This document shows, piece by piece, positions 38,656 through 57,652 of a stretch of DNA of 64,000 nt. A program made the position numbers and the translations under genes. This DNA comes from Thermococcus sp. 21S9 (GTDB lineage: Archaea; Methanobacteriota_B; Thermococci; Thermococcales; Thermococcaceae): contig NZ_SNUS01000001.1 in NCBI RefSeq assembly GCF_012027635.1, positions 372,001-436,000 of the forward strand, in the 5' to 3' direction. Positions within the stretch are counted from its first letter, which is position 1; the number at the start of each line of letters is the position of its first letter. Below the pieces are notes generated by a model. The model saw only the letters and a list, made by a program, of their open reading frames with translations. It did no database searches and was not told the origin of the DNA.

Positions 38656-41837
<3,182 letters not shown>

Positions 41838-42767: not shown

Positions 42768-42827
42768 TTGCCAGAAATGTGTAAAAATTGGGAGTTTTTA
42801 AGGCTTATTTTGACAGAAAAATGTTAA
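42768..42827. promoter_or_regulatory. purS promoter with paired 18-bp operators
   Basis: TTGCCA-GAAATG-TGTAAA (42768-42785) and TTGACA-GAAAAA-TGTTAA (42810-42827), centres 42 bp apart. The TATA box (CTTAAAAAC on the minus strand, about 42794-42802) is midway. The outer site overlaps the stop codon of the preceding LOG-like gene. Confidence 0.8.
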
Positions 42828-43330
42828 GAACGTGCGAGCCTCAGCGCCAGCTCAACGGCCTCTCCGGGACTCTCTGTGAAGGCAACCTTCGCCCGTTTCC
42901 TGTGGTCAAAGAAGCCGTCCTTCGCGAGGGCCTTAAGCTCGTCGCTCCTGTAACCTGTCCCCGTGAGAACGACCACGGGAATCCCGAGGTTGTAAGCCAT
43001 AAGAGCCTCGACCATCGTTCCCGAGCCACCACCAAGAACAACGAGGACGTCGGCCGAGGTAACGAGGACGACGCTTCTGCCCACCGGATTGAAGCCCGTC
43101 TTTATCCTTACCGAGCTGTACGGGTTCCCCTCCTCGTCCCCCGGAAGGACTCCGACGACGGTTCCACCGCGCCTCCTGAACTCCTCGGAGACGACTTCCA
43201 TTATTCCACCCTTTCCGCCCGTTAAAAGGACGACGTCGAGGGGAAGGGCTCTGGCGAAGGCCCTCGCCTTCCTCTCGGCCTCTGGGATGAGCTCCAAGTC
43301 GCCGGAACCGGCAACGGCTATCTGGACCAT
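42824..43330 (-). CDS. LOG/TIGR00725-like Rossmann protein
   Basis: 168 aa. Begins MVQIAVAGSGDLELIPEAER and has VVLLTGGKGGIMEVVSEEF and VVLGGGSGTMVEALMAYN, the PGGxGT-like motif of lysine-decarboxylase/LOG-type nucleotide phosphoribohydrolases. Here it reads GGGSGT, so activity is uncertain. Its ATG overlaps the stop of the PurP-like gene by one base (TGATG), which puts it in the purD-purP-like transcript and suggests a nucleotide-related task. Confidence 0.75.
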   Translation of the reverse strand: MVQIAVAGSGDLELIPEAERKARAFARALPLDVVLLTGGKGGIMEVVSEEFRRRGGTVVGVLPGDEEGNPYSSVRIKTGFNPVGRSVVLVTSADVLVVLGGGSGTMVEALMAYNLGIPVVVLTGTGYRSDELKALAKDGFFDHRKRAKVAFTESPGEAVELALRLARS

Positions 43331-44472
43331 CAGGTTACCACCTTCTCAAGCTCGTCGAGCTCGATTGCGCGCTTTATCTCGAGGGCGACCCTCCGTCCGG
43401 TGCTCATGGGCTTCCTCCAGAGGGCGTTGCCGTAGGGGTGCCCCATCGCCATGTGGATGTTAGTTCCACCGCCGGTTCTCGGGGCGACGTCGTAGATGTA
43501 GAAGTTGAGGTCTTTGTCCACCGCCGTCTGGAGCGTGAACGGCCCGATTATTCCAGGCTCGTAATACTTCTGCGTCGCCTTAACGTACTTCTCGGCCATG
43601 TCGAAGACCTTCTCCAAAAGCGACTCGCGGAGGGTTGAGGACGCGTGGCCCGTTACGGTGTATTCCGGCTCGAACTGCCACTCAGGAAGGGTCAACTGCT
43701 GGGGAGCGGGAAGCCTTACGTGGCCGTCAAGGCTCGTTTCGAAGCGCCAATCTATTCCCAGAAGCTCAATCTCCCCGTCAATCGGGGAGTAGAAGAAGTC
43801 GAAGTTGAACACAGGCCCGATGATGTAGCGCTCAATTCTGGCCCTCGCGAGGTCCTCCTCGGTAATTACGCCGAGCTTTTTCAGCCTCTCAGCCTTCTCG
43901 CGGAACTCTTTATAGCTCGCGGCCGTGAAGAATCCACGCTCGAGCCTCTTCTTGGCGTGCGGGAGCTTGACTATGACGAGGCCAACCTCGTCAATCTCCT
44001 CAGGCTTGACGGGCTCCGGATAGGGAAGTCCAGCCTTCTCAAGGAGCCAGTAGTAGCTCTTCTCCTCGCTCCTCTCCTCGCTCCTCAGCAGGTTCCTGCT
44101 CCCGAAGAGCGGAACCCTGAACTCGTTCTCAACCCTGCCTATGCCGGTGTAGACCACGAAGGAGCGGTTGGGGACGAAGATAACGTTCCTCCTAACGAGC
44201 TCGTCCTGAACGTCTATTATCCCGGCAAACTTTTCAAGGACGATGACCTCGTCGATGAAGCCCTTGGTCAGGCCGTCCTTGGTCCTCCTCAGCTTGAAGT
44301 ATTCGGCGTAAGTCCTGTGCCTGCCCCTCTGCGCCACGACCAGAACGGGCAAACCTTCCTCCTTAGCACCGTCGGCTATGTCCAGGGCGGAGTGGCTCCC
44401 GAGAACGCCGACTGTTATCTTCTCGGGGTCGTACCTCTCGAGGATTTCCAGAATCTCGTCCCGGCTTATCAT
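43330..44472 (-). CDS. Second PurP-like formate-dependent ligase
   Basis: 380 aa, homologous to PurP over its whole length (VLGSHSALDIADGAKEEGLP; C-terminal YDVAPRTGGGTNIHMAMGHP; end STGRRVALEIKRAIE). The lower similarity to the gene at 38707-39702 suggests a different role; Thermococcales carry PurP paralogues, and which one makes FAICAR is not evident from sequence. ATG 44472 has GGTGA 5 nt upstream. Confidence 0.85.
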   Translation of the reverse strand: MISRDEILEILERYDPEKITVGVLGSHSALDIADGAKEEGLPVLVVAQRGRHRTYAEYFKLRRTKDGLTKGFIDEVIVLEKFAGIIDVQDELVRRNVIFVPNRSFVVYTGIGRVENEFRVPLFGSRNLLRSEERSEEKSYYWLLEKAGLPYPEPVKPEEIDEVGLVIVKLPHAKKRLERGFFTAASYKEFREKAERLKKLGVITEEDLARARIERYIIGPVFNFDFFYSPIDGEIELLGIDWRFETSLDGHVRLPAPQQLTLPEWQFEPEYTVTGHASSTLRESLLEKVFDMAEKYVKATQKYYEPGIIGPFTLQTAVDKDLNFYIYDVAPRTGGGTNIHMAMGHPYGNALWRKPMSTGRRVALEIKRAIELDELEKVVT

Positions 44473-44482
44473 CCCCATCACC

Positions 44483-45799
44483 TCAGCAGGGATTCGGCTC
44501 AAAGTCCCTTCCAAGCTTCCGCATCAGCTCAATCCTCCTCTCAACACTCTCCCGGGTTCCAACGTCGCGCCTGTAGAACAGCTCACCCCTTATGTGGGGA
44601 ACCGCGCTCTCCGCTATCCTCTCTGCTTCTTCAAGGCTATCGGCGATTCCAACGACCGCTATGGCCCTCGAGCCGAGTAGCGTGAAGTTCTCATCAATTG
44701 AGGCATAGTAGAGCGTCGCACCGGCCTTCGCAACTGTCTCCTCGTCGACCTCCACCTTAACGCCCCTGACTGGGTTCGTTGGATAACCCTTCGGCGCGAG
44801 GTACTTGACGACCGTCGCTTTGCCCTCGAACTCCGCCCTCCGGAGGTTGCCGTCGACTATTCCCTCGGCTATTTCGAGGAGGCTCGTCCTGAGGAGCGGG
44901 AGGACGTTTATCGCCTCGGGGTCGCCGAAGCGGGCGTTGTACTCTATGAGAACAGGCCCGTTCTTGCTGAGCATGAACTGGCCGTAGAGGATTCCCTTGT
45001 AGGGCGCTCCCTCCTTCCTCATGGCCTCGACGGTGGCTTTAAGCGTTTCAAGGGCCTTCTCGTAGTCCTCACGCGTCACAAAGGGAAGCAGGCCGTTGGA
45101 ACAGGAGTAGCTCCCCATTCCGCCGGTTATCGGGCCTTCATCGTTCTCGTAGGCGTGGGGGTAGTCCTGGACGAGTGGCATCGGGATAACGTGCTTCCCG
45201 TCGCTGAAGACCTGCAACGTGAACTCGACGCCGTCTGTCCTCTCCTCGATGAGAACCCTTCCGTCGCGCCTGATTAGCTCCCCAGCGTAGGCTTTGGCTT
45301 CCTCGTTGTCCCGCAGCTGGTAGCCGACGACCTTAACACCCTTCCCACCGGTCAGGCCGATGGGCTTAACAACGACGGGCCTTCCAAAGTCGTCAACCCA
45401 CGAGCGCATCTCCGAAACGTCGGTAAAAACGCGGAAGACCTTTCTTCCGGGGATTTCGTTGCGCTCCATGAAGGCCCTCGCGAAGGCCTTGTCGGTTTCG
45501 AGTTTAGAGGCTTCTTTGCTCGGTCCGACTGCAGGGATGCCATTTTCCTCAAGGGTATCAACGATGCCCTTCTCAAGCGGTGCCTCTGGGCCGATGAACG
45601 CCAGCTCAACGTCGAACTTTTTGGCGTACTCGAGGACCTTTTCGATGTCCGTCTCCTTTGCCAGACCGTAGCCCTTCGCTAGCCTCGCGAGGCCGGGATT
45701 TCTGTGCTTCGAGACGACGTAGAGCTCGGCACCACCCCTTACGAGGGTCTCACCAATCGCGTGCTCCCTTCCACCTCCACCAACGAGCAGAACCCTCAT
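44483..45799 (-). CDS. purD: Phosphoribosylamine-glycine ligase
   Basis: 438 aa ATP-grasp enzyme making GAR. N-terminal MRVLLVGGGGREHAIGETLV, GPSKEASKLETDKAFARAFM, KPIGLTGGKGVKVV, and GMGSYSCSNGLLPFVT. ATG 45799 follows GGTGAAGCTA. First gene of the purD - PurP-like - LOG-like transcript; two operator sites lie upstream. Confidence 0.97.
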   Translation of the reverse strand: MRVLLVGGGGREHAIGETLVRGGAELYVVSKHRNPGLARLAKGYGLAKETDIEKVLEYAKKFDVELAFIGPEAPLEKGIVDTLEENGIPAVGPSKEASKLETDKAFARAFMERNEIPGRKVFRVFTDVSEMRSWVDDFGRPVVVKPIGLTGGKGVKVVGYQLRDNEEAKAYAGELIRRDGRVLIEERTDGVEFTLQVFSDGKHVIPMPLVQDYPHAYENDEGPITGGMGSYSCSNGLLPFVTREDYEKALETLKATVEAMRKEGAPYKGILYGQFMLSKNGPVLIEYNARFGDPEAINVLPLLRTSLLEIAEGIVDGNLRRAEFEGKATVVKYLAPKGYPTNPVRGVKVEVDEETVAKAGATLYYASIDENFTLLGSRAIAVVGIADSLEEAERIAESAVPHIRGELFYRRDVGTRESVERRIELMRKLGRDFEPNPC

Positions 45800-48153: not shown

Positions 48154-49443
48154 TTAAAGTAGGTGCTTTCTTCTCTCGTAATCCTGTCCGTGCCACTCAG
48201 AGGAGCGCGTTCTGAGTTCTATGGAGTGGGCAACCATCTCGGCCTTCCTCTTGGCCTCCTCAACGTTCTTGTCCCAGGCTATAGCCACTCCAAGCCTCCT
48301 TCCCGGATAGGCCTCGGGCTTGCCGAAGAGCCTTACCGTCGCGTTCGGGACGCTTAGGGCCTTAGCTAACCCGCGGAACCTTGGCGAGTAGCCAGAGACG
48401 TTGGCCTTGATGACGTGAGTGGCAGCGGGAGTCAGGAGCGGGAACAGACGATAACCGTCGACCCACTCGCCCGGAATCGGAAGGCCAAGGACGGCCCTCA
48501 GGTGAAGCCCGAACTCGGAGAAGCCGGTCGGGTGGGAAGCCAGAGTTACCATTCCGGTGTCGTGGGGCCTCGGCGAGACCTCGTTGGCCCAGACCTTATC
48601 GCCCTTCACGAACATCTCGACGCCAAACAGTCCGAGACCGCCGAGGACGTCGGTGATGCGCTTCGCTATCCTGTAAACCTCGCGCTCCGCCTTCTCCGAG
48701 ATTTCAGCCGGTTGCCAGCTGGAGTGGTAGTCGCCGTCAATCTGGTAGTGGCCGACGGGCTTCGGGAAGGTGGTAACTATCTCCCCGTTCTCGTCGTAGT
48801 GCCTCACCGCGAGCTCGGTAATCTCTACGTCGAAGTCTATGTGCTCCTCAACGATTATCTTGTCGGCGCTACCGCGGGCTTTATTTTTAGCGACTTCCCA
48901 GGCCTTGGGTATGTCCTCGGGACCTCTAACGAAGTAGGAGCCCTTGCCCGAGGAGCTCATTATCGCCTTGGTGTGGCAGGGGTAGCCTATCTTTTCGCAG
49001 GCCTCGTAGAGTTCGTCGAGAGTAGTCGCGTAGGCGTAGCGTGAAGTTGGAACCTTAGCTTCCTTTGCGAGCGTTTCCCTCGTCCTCTCGCGGTGCATGG
49101 CAATCCAGGTCGCTCTCGCGTTAGGAACCACGAAGTAGCCGTCCTTCTCAAGCTCGAAGAGGGCATCGAGGTTTATGGCCTCTATCTCGGGGATTATAGC
49201 GTCTGGCTTTTCCCTCTCTACGACCGAGAAGAGGAAGTCCGCGTTCCTCATGTCGCCCACGTAGGAGCGGTGGGCGACCTGCATGGCCGGAGCGCTTGCG
49301 TAGCGGTCAACGGCTACAACCTCCACACCGAGCCTCTGAGCCTCAATCGCTATCTCCTTTCCGAGCTCTCCACTCCCGAGGAGGAGTATCTTCTGAGCGG
49401 AGTCCGTCATGGCAGTTCCAAGTTCATCGCGGGGCTTAATCAC
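48154..49443 (-). CDS. purT: Formate-dependent GAR transformylase PurT
   Basis: 429 aa ATP-grasp enzyme that formylates GAR with formate and ATP. N-terminal ILLLGSGELGKEIAIEAQRL, VVAVDRYASAPAMQVAHRSY, IMSSSGKGSYFVRGPEDIPK and EVSPRPHDTGMVTLASH. The GTG start at 49443 (VIKPRDELGTAMTDSAQK) agrees with the Pyrococcus protein; GGTGG is 5 nt upstream. Divergent from purM. Confidence 0.97.
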   Translation of the reverse strand: MIKPRDELGTAMTDSAQKILLLGSGELGKEIAIEAQRLGVEVVAVDRYASAPAMQVAHRSYVGDMRNADFLFSVVEREKPDAIIPEIEAINLDALFELEKDGYFVVPNARATWIAMHRERTRETLAKEAKVPTSRYAYATTLDELYEACEKIGYPCHTKAIMSSSGKGSYFVRGPEDIPKAWEVAKNKARGSADKIIVEEHIDFDVEITELAVRHYDENGEIVTTFPKPVGHYQIDGDYHSSWQPAEISEKAEREVYRIAKRITDVLGGLGLFGVEMFVKGDKVWANEVSPRPHDTGMVTLASHPTGFSEFGLHLRAVLGLPIPGEWVDGYRLFPLLTPAATHVIKANVSGYSPRFRGLAKALSVPNATVRLFGKPEAYPGRRLGVAIAWDKNVEEAKRKAEMVAHSIELRTRSSEWHGQDYERRKHLL

Positions 49444-52580: not shown

Positions 52581-52658
52581 AGTTTTTAAACACAAGGATT
52601 TAAACCAGGCCAGAGTACTTGAAGGCCATTAACTTTTCAATGGCAACCGGTGGTGGGG

Positions 52659-53993
52659 ATGCGGGAGAAGTGCGGAATCTTCGCAACGCTCTCAGAGAAC
52701 TCAGCAAAGAAGGCCTACTACGCCCTTTTAGCTTTACAGCATCGCGGGCAGGAGAGCGCGGGAATAAGCGTCTGGCGGGGCAGGATAAGAACGGTTTCCG
52801 GTCTCGGTCTCGTCACCGACGTTTTCAGGGGAAAAGAACTTGCAAAGCTCCGCTCGAACCTCGCCATAGCCCACGTCCGCTACTCGACGTCAGGCTCGCT
52901 CAACGAGACCCAGCCCCTTGAGACGGAGTGCTGTGGAATGAGAATCGCGGTGGCGCACAACGGGACGCTCACCAACTTCAGACCCCTTCGCGAGAGGTAT
53001 GAAGGGCTCGGCGTCAGGTTCCGCCATTCGGTTGACTCCGAACTGCTCGGAATTTCCTTCCTCTGGCATCTTCGCGAGACGGAAGACGAGTTCGAGGCAA
53101 TGAAGGCCGTCTTTAATGAGGTAAAAGGTGCATACTCCGTTGCCTTTCTCTTCGATGGCAAAATCCTCGTGGCAAGGGACCCCGTTGGTTTCAGGCCCCT
53201 GAGCTACGGAACAGGAGATGGCCACTACTTCGCGAGCGAGGATTCGGCGTTGAAGCTCTTCGTGGAGGAAACGAGGGACGTGAAGCCGGGGGAGGTCTTC
53301 CTTCTCTCGGAAAACGGCGTTGAGAGCAGGGTTCTCGCGAGAGAAAGTCACCACCACTGCGTTTTCGAGTACATCTACTTCGCGAGGCCGGACAGCGTTC
53401 TGGACGGGACGAGCGTTTACGGTGCGAGGGTCAGGATGGGCCGGGAGCTGGCTCGCGAGAGTCCGGCTGAGGGAGACATCGTCATAGCGGTTCCCGACTC
53501 CGGAAGGGCTTCCGCCTTAGGTTTCTCGCAGGAGAGCGGGATTCCCTATGCGGAGGGGCTGATAAAGAACCGCTACATCGGAAGGACCTTCATAACCCCG
53601 GGCCAGTTCAACAGAGAGCTGAAGGTTAAGCTCAAGCTCTCGCCTGTTAGAGAAGTTATAGCCGGAAAGAGTGTCGTTCTGGTGGACGATTCTATAGTCA
53701 GGGGCACGACGATGAAGAGAATCGTCGCAATGCTCAGGAAGGCCGGCGCGAGGGAGGTCCATGTCAGAATAGCCTCACCTCCGATAAGGTACCCCTGCTA
53801 CATGGGTGTCGACATTCCCACAAGGCACGAGCTCATAGCGGCCTTCGGGGGAGTTGAAAAGGTGAGGGAAGCGATAGGGGCCGACAGCCTGGCTTACCTC
53901 AGCGTTGAGGGCCTGAAGAGGGCCGTCGGCAGGGAAGACCTCTGCACGGCCTGTCTAACCGGCGAGTATCCCGAGTGGGCGTTCAGGTTTTAA
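52659..53993 (+). CDS. purF: Amidophosphoribosyltransferase
   Basis: 444 aa; first committed step, PRPP plus glutamine to phosphoribosylamine. [14 protein letters not shown]: the Cys at position 5 becomes the N-terminal nucleophile after a short propeptide is removed. [22 protein letters not shown], and the PRPP loop [18 protein letters not shown]. The C-terminal cysteines ([21 protein letters not shown]) are those that carry an Fe-S cluster in related enzymes. ATG 52659 follows GGTGGTGGGG. Confidence 0.97.
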
Positions 53994-54536: not shown

Positions 54537-56528
54537 TTAAGGGTTAGGCTTAACCCTCTTAACCCGACACGCCGAGAACTTGAACGCCGGAGTTCCGGCC
54601 TTGTTGAGTGCTGGACTCGTGAGCCTGTTCGCCTTGAAGTGGAAGGGAACCACGACGAGGCCCTCCTGAACATTTCCGACCTTCGCGCGCATCCTTATCC
54701 TCCCGCGCCGGGTTTCAATCTCCACCCAATCGTTATCGCGGATTCCGAGCCTTTCCGCGTCGCGCTTACTCATCAACGCCCTCGGCTCGCCCATGAGCTT
54801 CACGAGCGAGGGACTCCTCCGCGTCATCTCACCGGTGTTGTAGTGGCTTATCAAGCGAATGGTCGTTAGAACCATCGGGAACTCCCCGTTCGGCTCCTCC
54901 CAGGGTGAGATTCTCTCGACGGCCATGAAGCGGGCCTTTCCGTCGGGCGTTGCGAACTCCCAGGTGTGAAGCCTCTTCCTCGGCAGAAAGATTCCATCGC
55001 CGTTCTTGAGTTCCTCAACGTCCCTCTCCTCAAGCTCCGGGAAAAGGCGGAAGTACTCTGCCGTTATCTCCTCAACCCCAGCATAGTTGAAGCCCGGAAG
55101 CCCGAGCGCCCGGCCGAGCATCGCCAGAATCTCCCAGTCAGGCTTTGAGTCGGCGTAGGGCTCGCAGACCTTGTGGCTCCACTGGATTCTCCGCTCGCTG
55201 TTCATGTAACTGCCGGCCTTTTCGCAGAAGGCCGATGCCGGAAGGATGTAGTGGGCGTAGCGCGCCGTTCTCGTCATGAAGATGTCCTGAACCACGAGTA
55301 GGTCGAGCTTTCTGAGGGCTTTTCTTACGTGGTCAAAGTTCGCCTCGCTCACAGCCGGATTCTCGCCGACGATGTAGAGGGCCTTCACGTCGCCCTCTTC
55401 TATTGCCTCCCACAGCTCGGTGAGGTAGAGTCCCCTGTCCGTCGGTATGTCCTCGACTCCCCACACGTCGGCAACGCGCTTCCGGAAGCGCTCGTCGGTC
55501 AGCGGGACGTAGCCCGGCAGGAACTCGCTCAGCGCGCCCATGTAAGCGGCTCCCTGGACGTTGTTCTGCCCGCGCATCGGATAGAAGCCACCGCGCTCGC
55601 CGATGTAGCCGAGGAGCAGTGCGAGGTTTATCACGGCCAGAACGTTCTCAACGCCAGAGACGTGCTGGGTTAGGCCCATCCCCCACATTATCGCCCCGCT
55701 TCCGGCCAGTGCGAAGGCCCTCGCAACTTCCCTTATCGTCTCCGCGGGAACTCCAGTCACGCCCTCCGCGTACTCTGGGGTGTACTTCGTAACCCCCATC
55801 CTGACCTCTGAGAACCCGCTCGTCCTCATCCTGATGAACTCCTCGTTGTAGAGGCCCTCCTTGATTATAACGTGGGCAATCGCGTTGGCCAGAACTATGT
55901 CCGTCCCAGGCTTTATGACGAGCCTGTAATCCGCAAAGGCCATCGTCCGCGTTTCCCTGACGTCCACGACGATTACCTTGGCCCCTCTCCTCTTGGCCTT
56001 CAGGATGTAGTCCATGACGACGGGGTGCGTTTCAGCGGGATTGTAGCCCCATATCAGGACGGCGTTGAAGCGCTCGATGTCCTCGTAGGGGTTCGTCTGC
56101 GCCCCGGTTCCAACGGTCAGCTTGAGCGCGTGAACGCTCGCCTCGTGGCACAGCCTCGCGCAGTTGTCTATGTTGTTCGTGCCGAAGAGGCGGGCAATCT
56201 TCTGGAGGAGGTAGTTCTCCTCGTTGCTCACCTTCGAGGACGAGAGGAACGCCACCGCGTCGGGGCCGTAAAGCTCCCTTATCTCGAGCAGTCTGTTGGC
56301 TATCTCCTCTATCGCGACCCCCCAGCTGATTGGGACCATCGCCGAACCGGCCCTCTTGAGGGGCCTCTTCAGCCTTCCGGGGGAGCGGACGAACTCGAGC
56401 GAGTAGAGACCCTTGGGGCAGAGCTTTCCCCTGTTCGGCTCGCCGGGGTAGGGCTTGACCCTCATGCTCTTCTCGTCAACAAGGAGCCTGCACCCAAAAC
56501 CGCAGAAGGGGCACACGACCGTCTTCAC
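54537..56528 (-). CDS. Formate dehydrogenase-like molybdo/tungstopterin oxidoreductase, stand-alone catalytic subunit
   Basis: 663 aa. [4Fe-4S] site Cys6, Cys9, Cys13, Cys37 (CPFCGFGC ... CPKG). Metal ligand Cys127 in DNCARLCHEASVHAL followed by GTGAQTNPYEDIE, as in formate dehydrogenases with Cys in place of Sec. MGD-binding C-terminal domain with [20 protein letters not shown]. No FdhB, electron-transfer or formate-transport gene adjoins. The GTG start 56528 follows GGTGGTAGC. Its promoter has the paired operators of the pur genes, so I infer that it makes (or removes) formate for PurT and PurP. Confidence 0.85.
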   Translation of the reverse strand: MKTVVCPFCGFGCRLLVDEKSMRVKPYPGEPNRGKLCPKGLYSLEFVRSPGRLKRPLKRAGSAMVPISWGVAIEEIANRLLEIRELYGPDAVAFLSSSKVSNEENYLLQKIARLFGTNNIDNCARLCHEASVHALKLTVGTGAQTNPYEDIERFNAVLIWGYNPAETHPVVMDYILKAKRRGAKVIVVDVRETRTMAFADYRLVIKPGTDIVLANAIAHVIIKEGLYNEEFIRMRTSGFSEVRMGVTKYTPEYAEGVTGVPAETIREVARAFALAGSGAIMWGMGLTQHVSGVENVLAVINLALLLGYIGERGGFYPMRGQNNVQGAAYMGALSEFLPGYVPLTDERFRKRVADVWGVEDIPTDRGLYLTELWEAIEEGDVKALYIVGENPAVSEANFDHVRKALRKLDLLVVQDIFMTRTARYAHYILPASAFCEKAGSYMNSERRIQWSHKVCEPYADSKPDWEILAMLGRALGLPGFNYAGVEEITAEYFRLFPELEERDVEELKNGDGIFLPRKRLHTWEFATPDGKARFMAVERISPWEEPNGEFPMVLTTIRLISHYNTGEMTRRSPSLVKLMGEPRALMSKRDAERLGIRDNDWVEIETRRGRIRMRAKVGNVQEGLVVVPFHFKANRLTSPALNKAGTPAFKFSACRVKRVKPNP

Positions 56529-56539
56529 GCTACCACCTT

Positions 56540-56600
56540 TTGGCAAGAAAAAGCTAAAATTAAAAAATTTTGCGCATAATTTTTGAAATGACTTTGTCAA
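56540..56600. promoter_or_regulatory. Formate dehydrogenase promoter with paired 18-bp operators
   Basis: TTGGCA-AGAAAA-AGCTAA (56540-56557) and TTGAAA-TGACTT-TGTCAA (56583-56600), centres 43 bp apart, with an AT-rich TATA region (AATTTTTTAAT on minus, about 56559-56569) between. The inner site shares its first twelve bases with the purM-side site at 49508. Confidence 0.7.
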
Positions 56601-56671: not shown

Positions 56672-57652
56672 ATGACAGCGAGAACGATGATATTCCTTTT
56701 GCTGTTATCCCTTCTGTTCGTTCCATATTCCTCAGCTAACCTCGTCGTGATTCCTGGAAAGGACGATGCCTTCGTCGTGCACTGGTGGGCCGGCGAAAAC
56801 GGGGAACTCGGAATGGACTTTTACCACTTCATCAACGGAACAATTCAGCCCTTTTACCGCACCTGCCTCCTCTGCAACGGCAACGAAGTTATAAACGACT
56901 GGGCCCGGCTCATTCCGAACGGGAGTTCGTGGATATTCCTGCGGAGCTTCTACGTTCCAAAAAACGATACGCGGGTTGTTGAAGCCTACCGCGTTCAGGG
57001 AAAGGACTGCACCCTCATCGGGAGGGTTTCCTTGGTTCTGCCCCCAGAAACGGAGCCAAGGATTGTGGTTTACTATCAGAGGAAGGCCTTTGGGGTGTAT
57101 TTTGAAAACGGGAGCGAAATCATCTCGAGGAAATTCCTGATTCGAAATTCTCTTACACCGGTTAACTTCTCCGGTTTTCCGGAGGGGACGCCTGTTTACT
57201 ACGCGATGGAAAAGGGCGTCCCCTTGGGTGGATTCTACGTCAGCGGGAACGGCTATGCATACAACGGGAGTAAGGTTGTTCTCGTTCCGTTGAACGTCGT
57301 CAGGGAAATCGTATCGTCTCTAAAGGCTAAAGAGGACATCAGAGGTTTCGCATCAGCCATTCTGAAGGACGGGGTTATCATGTACTATCCTTACAACTAT
57401 CATGTCAACGGTTCCCCCATGAGGGATGACGAACTCAGCCTCTTCTACTATCCAACCAACGGCGGGAAGCTCACGGTTTTCAAGCTTGAAAAGTTTCAGA
57501 ACAGCTCGGGCTTTGCCCCGGGAATCGTTTGCTCAGAGAAGCCGGAAGAGAAAAGGCCGGAAAAGGGAAACTCCGGGATATGTGGTCCTGCGAGCTTAGT
57601 GGTGCTGACCCTGATACCGGCTTACAGGGCCTTCCGCAGGAAGTACTCGTGA
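56672..57652 (+). CDS. Secreted protein with CGP-CTERM anchor
   Basis: 326 aa. Signal peptide about 1-22 (MIFLLLLSLLFVPYSSA). Outside region with about ten N-glycosylation-type sequons (for example FINGT, IPNGSS, FENGSE, YNGS) and two CxxC-like cysteines (RTCLLCNG). It ends with a charged stretch and GNSGICGPASLVVLTLIPAY then RAFRRKYS, the CGP-CTERM sorting signal known from Thermococcaceae. Function unknown. The 3' end overlaps pdxT (convergent, 31 bp). The ribosome site is weak. Confidence 0.8.
   Translation: MTARTMIFLLLLSLLFVPYSSANLVVIPGKDDAFVVHWWAGENGELGMDFYHFINGTIQPFYRTCLLCNGNEVINDWARLIPNGSSWIFLRSFYVPKNDTRVVEAYRVQGKDCTLIGRVSLVLPPETEPRIVVYYQRKAFGVYFENGSEIISRKFLIRNSLTPVNFSGFPEGTPVYYAMEKGVPLGGFYVSGNGYAYNGSKVVLVPLNVVREIVSSLKAKEDIRGFASAILKDGVIMYYPYNYHVNGSPMRDDELSLFYYPTNGGKLTVFKLEKFQNSSGFAPGIVCSEKPEEKRPEKGNSGICGPASLVVLTLIPAYRAFRRKYS

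Follow-up and report, generated by a model that had tools for sequence, protein, structure and literature searches.

Two enzymes of purine synthesis, PurT and PurP, need free formate, and its source in Thermococcales without a formate channel had been an open question. The closest described system is the lone fdhA of Thermococci (Group 5), which is often near purine genes and may make formate for purines (Holden & Sistu 2023, PMC10025317). In that paper, the redox partner of the Group 5 fdhA and the regulation of Groups 2-5 are given as unknown, no operator is reported, and a double fdhA mutant of M. maripaludis is reported to grow without purines. In methanogens, an FDH is likewise thought to help supply the free formate for purines. 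However, this enzyme (FdhAB, the presumed formate source for PurP) is F420-dependent and possesses a beta subunit.

We analyzed a 64-kb stretch of DNA from Thermococcus sp. 21S9 (the window), which contains a solo fdhA. Like the Group 5 gene, it encodes a lone catalytic subunit, lies near purine genes and has no adjoining electron-transfer or hydrogenase genes. Unlike Group 5, where fdhA is the only FDH-related gene of the genome, two more FDH-like genes are present here, one of them canonical. Among solved structures, the best matches are E. coli FDH-H and HDCR FdhF (PDB 1aa6, 7qv7), which share the family, the single N-terminal [4Fe-4S] cluster and the catalytic His and Arg. In contrast to the solo enzyme, they have dedicated HycB-type partners and hydrogenase modules, and the E. 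coli enzyme uses Sec. The Nfd and Fhl enzymes of Thermococcales have related catalytic subunits (48-55% identical), whereas their operons contain [4Fe-4S] subunits, a formate transporter or a hydrogenase, and carry the pur operator only in four genomes without solo fdh.

The idea of an earlier note on this DNA, that the enzyme supplies formate for purines, had therefore already been published (PMC10025317). Apparently new, as far as our search of open-licence papers shows, are the operator and the regulon, the controls on FDH paralogues, the occurrence of the operator on other FDHs in genomes that lack the solo gene, and the coexistence of solo fdh with other FDHs.

The Solo fdhA Gene and Its Product

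An FDH-like ORF spans positions 54537-56600 on the minus strand. The earlier note had this ORF right, but not its start. The realistic start codon is the GTG at 56528, and the protein of 663 amino acids begins with MKTVVCPFCGFGC. The TTG at 56600 was rejected because the 24 extra codons contain both operators described below and because orthologues start at the equivalent GTG. Thus, positions 56529-56600 are the gene's own promoter. The genes of the window that concern us here are as follows.

38707..39702, minus strand: purP, formate-dependent FAICAR synthetase, formate consumer 2 (Pfam DUF1246 and DUF1297, the PurP domains)
43330..44514, minus strand: second PurP paralogue, about 40% identical (Pfam DUF1246 and DUF1297)
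48154..49407, minus strand: purT, formate-dependent GAR transformylase, formate consumer 1 (Pfam ATP-grasp and PurT_C)
52659..53993, plus strand: purF, tail to tail with fdhA (Pfam, ORF list)
54540..56528, minus strand: solo fdhA, FDH catalytic subunit, 663 aa, GTG start (TIGR01591, Pfam, catalytic residues, dN/dS)

Besides the paralogue at 43330-44514, another PurP-like protein, also about 40% identical to PurP, is encoded elsewhere in the genome (G000 C1:1611784-1612710).

As judged from its sequence, the ORF is a canonical FDH catalytic subunit with a predicted formate/CO2 activity. The protein contains the Pfam domains Molybdopterin, Molydop_binding and Molybdop_Fe4S4, and matches TIGR01591 (FDH alpha subunit, FdhF type) over residues 4-656 with 883 bits, against a cut-off of 666. 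The N-terminal [4Fe-4S] cysteines C6, C9, C13 and C37 are invariant in 42 solo and 28 other FDH-like sequences. Cys127, correctly named in the earlier note as the metal ligand, is invariant in all 42 solo orthologues, as are His128, Arg319 (in RGQNN) and Lys39. The dN/dS values against five relatives are 0.08-0.14, which shows strong purifying selection on the gene.

An Mo/W-bis-MGD oxidoreductase other than an FDH, acting on a metabolite of the purine pathway, would agree with the 24 fixed positions at which the solo clade differs from other FDHs; one of them is Tyr329, where the residue following RGQNNVQGA is usually Asp. However, the protein retains the whole catalytic set (Cys, His, Arg and Lys), scores well above the TIGR01591 cut-off, and most resembles the solved chains of HDCR FdhF, E. 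coli FDH-H and F420-dependent FDH. We regard such an enzyme as very improbable, and an FDH is the preferred assignment. No solo fdh was found beyond Thermococcaceae in the 115 genomes of the phylum that were searched, where the next best proteins are 42-44% identical.

Gln and Pro replace the catalytic His and Arg in 12 of the 28 FDH-like paralogues. One of these is encoded in our genome, in a hydrogenase-type cluster (G000 C1:1286909-1288942; L065 8883-10949), and barely passes TIGR01591 (671 versus 666 bits). The same substitutions (RYCQ/RMCQ, PGA) are present in the hydrogenase-type clusters L112, L117, L122-L125, L128, L130, L131, L133 and L135. These Gln/Pro proteins may not be formate dehydrogenases.

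Gene Neighbourhood

As the earlier note proposed, the solo fdhA lies next to purF and no hydrogenase or electron-transfer subunits adjoin it; the latter holds in the window and in relatives. The two genes are tail to tail, with a small MazF/AbrB-like pair between them. Since hydrogenase and [4Fe-4S] partner genes are absent from the operon, it does not belong to the FDH-hydrogenase complexes (HDCR/Fhl). The order pdxS-pdxT-fdh-purF is widely conserved in relatives. In most of them pdxT and fdhA are adjacent; in the window, an ORF without a Pfam match (56672-57652) is inserted between them.

The location of the gene differs among genera. In g1 and g4, fdh adjoins purF. In g3, it is located beside pdxST, 0.1-6.4 kb upstream of purP-guaA. 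In g5 (G086 and G090) and in G001, it is away from the pur genes and adjoins a coaBC-like gene.

The Double Operator of the Purine Genes

A palindromic 18-bp matrix was trained on the promoters of purM, purF and purD only (128 sites; consensus TTRACATNNNNATGTYAA, 15.4 bits). The fdh promoters were left out of the training and then scored with this matrix. In the pur promoters, two copies of the operator lie around the TATA box, 42 bp apart from start to start, which is about four helical turns. The pairs at the pur genes of the window, found with the pur-trained matrix and given without strand, are as follows.

42768..42827: in front of the small ORF that precedes purQ-purL (purS position), 31.6 bits
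45805..45864: in front of purD, 27.8 bits
47369..47428: in front of purE, a weak pair, 13.3 bits
49466..49525: between purT and purM, 35.1 bits
52510..52569: between purC and purF, 29.0 bits

The fdh pair ranks fifth in the 64 kb (15.2 bits), after four pur promoters and ahead of a second purF pair (15.1 bits) and the purE pair. Apart from one pair that overlaps a pur site (4.0 bits), no other pair in the whole 64 kb exceeds 3.3 bits. An operator-like site at 52629-52646 (15.3 bits), immediately before the start of purF, pairs at 42 bp with a site at 52587 and is conserved in relatives.

Genome-wide, a loose double-site pattern occurs at 10 places in our genome versus 1 for the reversed control, and at 4-12 places in 16 relatives versus 0-5 for the reversed control. 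Outside the pur genes, the pattern marks a purine permease and glutamine synthetase in our genome. Glutamine synthetase is also a target in relatives, together with purB and guaBA, and the matches at pyrB are weak. In L075 (G000 C1:843468-846527), a 34.3-bit double operator separates glutamine synthetase from a small unnamed ORF, and glutamine synthetase has a double operator in at least six other genomes. On these sequence matches the operator set is a purine regulon, with expression control predicted. Beside the operators, no gene for a transcription factor was conspicuous, and no description of a purine operator of Thermococcales was found in the open-licence literature.

The Operator Pair in the fdh Promoter

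The claim that fdh carries the same double operator as the pur genes proved to be real. Two 18-bp palindromes about 42 bp apart flank the core promoter, which places fdhA in the regulon.

56540..56557, without strand: fdh operator, proximal site TTGGCAAGAAAAAGCTAA, 9.4 bits (palindromic pur-trained matrix)
56558..56582, minus strand: core promoter, A/T-rich TATA-like stretch between the operators (seen in the sequence; relatives have it at the same place in their fdh promoters)
56583..56600, without strand: fdh operator, distal site TTGAAATGACTTTGTCAA, 5.8 bits (pur-trained matrix, shuffles, relatives)

The 12 bases that the earlier note described as shared with the purM site were also found: TTGGCAAGAAAA is common to the sites at 56540 and 49508. 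The window sites are 43 bp apart from start to start, against 42 bp at the pur genes and at the fdh genes of relatives. They are weaker than most of the relatives' sites (15.2 bits for the pair, versus 26-35 in g4 and 21-27 in g3). Only 1 of 20,000 dinucleotide shuffles scores as high as the window pair.

Among the 28 genomes whose fdh promoters were scored, 27 have the operator pair, which is conserved in five genera; in each of these 27 genomes 0 or 1 of 2,000 shuffles reaches the pair score. The promoter in G015, which has no operator, is the only failure in this shuffle test. The mean best-pair score of the fdh promoters is 17.1 at a spacing of 42, versus 8.7 at the next-best spacing and a median of -10.8 over all spacings.

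If the operator were a leftover of gene order near the pur genes, with no present role, fdh would serve general redox or pdx-linked metabolism. The wide conservation of pdxS-pdxT-fdh-purF, the weakness of the window sites and the loss of the sites in G015 agree with this. However, three genera (g3, g5 and g2) have the pair although their fdh lies apart from purF, and four genomes carry it on other FDH operons, as shown in the next section. Furthermore, a gene on the other strand separates the window fdh from pdxT, and fdh therefore needs its own promoter. A leftover operator is thus quite unlikely. We prefer a present role of the operator in purine-linked control.

FDH Paralogues and the Operator

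In addition to the solo gene, our genome possesses a second canonical FDH, whose cluster includes a formate transporter (C1:618914, L064), and the third, non-canonical paralogue mentioned above (C1:1286909, L065). Neither carries the pair (-19.4 and -20.4), and Nfd, Fhl and other FDH-like paralogues score from -20 to +1. The exceptions are G002, G003, G035 and G093. These four genomes have no solo fdh, and the pair (24.5-29.2 bits) is located directly upstream of the only FDH found in them. In G002, G003 and G035, it lies between the formate transporter and an Nfd-type fdhA; in G093, it precedes the fdhA of a small operon that also encodes two Fe-S proteins. The Nfd copies in the multi-FDH genomes G026, G029 and G039 are without the pair, and the sole FDH of G012 has no pur operator.

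Co-regulation of fdh with the purine genes, as the earlier note proposed, is thus supported by the blind matrix test, the conservation across five genera, the paralogue controls and the operator on a different FDH in four genomes. These results also bear on the direction of the reaction. The solo enzyme might oxidise and remove formate, and share the control of the purine genes merely so that the formate pool can be adjusted: such FDHs are reversible, and our genome has other FDHs and a formate transporter. However, with an operator common to PurT and PurP, such an enzyme would compete with the formate consumers just when formate is needed, although the direction of control is itself an inferred one. 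Moreover, where the solo gene is absent, the operator also occurs on the only FDH found in four genomes. We therefore consider formate removal unlikely, and formate supply remains the preferred reading.

Presence and Loss of Solo fdh

Presence and absence were scored in 75 genomes that are at least 90% complete. Solo fdh is present in 59 of these, and all 59 possess purF and, by searches, purT and purP. All five near-complete genomes without purF, purT and orthologous purP (G020, G026, G057, G058 and G087) also lack solo fdh, as do 11 of the 70 purine-proficient ones (Fisher p 2.5e-4 for absence in purine-deficient versus purine-proficient genomes, not corrected for relatedness). Loss in all five purine-deficient genomes fits a purine-linked role.

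In G021 and G029, fdh is cleanly lost between pdxT and purF. In G092 (L095 1501-1670), a deletion scar of fdhA is left: codons about 10-636 are lost, the first approximately 9 and the last approximately 23 codons remain, and the start codon is ACG. Both pur operators are kept at the scar, and the purine genes are kept in this genome. G021, G073 and G092 keep purF, purT and purP, and neither a canonical FDH nor a pyruvate formate-lyase was found in them. Therefore, other formate sources exist or these species depend on uptake, and an FDH is not universally required for purine synthesis.

Pyruvate formate-lyase was rejected as the formate source in our genome, from which it is absent. Genes of this kind were found in only 9 of 94 genomes, namely the Thermococcaceae genomes G024, G068, G077, G078, G080-G083 and G085. 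About 13 near-complete genomes, including ours, carry solo fdh together with an approximately 50% identical FDH of another cluster. In our genome, the second canonical FDH with its formate transporter could supply formate. The solo gene is therefore not the sole possible formate source here, and a reading of it as the only one is not supported.

No HycB/FdhB-like protein was found at E<=1e-10 in three genomes with solo fdh (G014, G008 and G009). A HycB/FdhB-like subunit encoded elsewhere was therefore rejected as a universal partner, although the enzyme may use unrelated Fe-S partners. We infer that the result favours a general carrier such as ferredoxin over a dedicated HycB/FdhB-like partner in all genomes.

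Proposed Role of Solo FdhA

We consider it likely that the solo FdhA is an FDH isozyme of Thermococcales dedicated to biosynthesis, which is controlled by the purine regulator and converts CO2 to formate for PurT and PurP. Two 18-bp palindromic operators TTRACATNNNNATGTYAA flank the promoter about four helical turns apart, as at the purine genes. When purines suffice, a putative purine regulator, most likely as two dimers around the TATA box, would silence fdh; when purines are scarce, it would release the promoter. Repression is the presumed sign of this control. The enzyme would act as one catalytic subunit that contains a single [4Fe-4S] cluster and a Cys-ligated Mo/W-bis-MGD site, in which the metal is presumably tungsten. 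CO2 reduction to formate is probably its working direction. Reduced ferredoxin would most likely donate the electrons, and PurT and PurP would put the formate into purine carbons 8 and 2. The enzyme family, catalytic residues, operator and its conservation, controls and phyletic pattern are shown by the sequence comparisons described above.

We also lean, with less assurance, towards a wider proposal: any FDH lineage able to supply formate may come under the purine regulator, which controls the solo gene in most genomes and an Nfd-type or other FDH in genomes that lack it, and the solo enzyme works without a dedicated beta subunit, receiving electrons from a general carrier such as ferredoxin.

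The operator links a particular enzyme to the formate demand of purine synthesis. It also defines a compact archaeal purine regulon, which comprises the pur genes, fdhA, purine permease, glutamine synthetase, purB and guaBA. Furthermore, the finding suggests a CO2 reductase of one subunit, perhaps with direct use of ferredoxin, which is of interest for CO2 reduction at high temperature.
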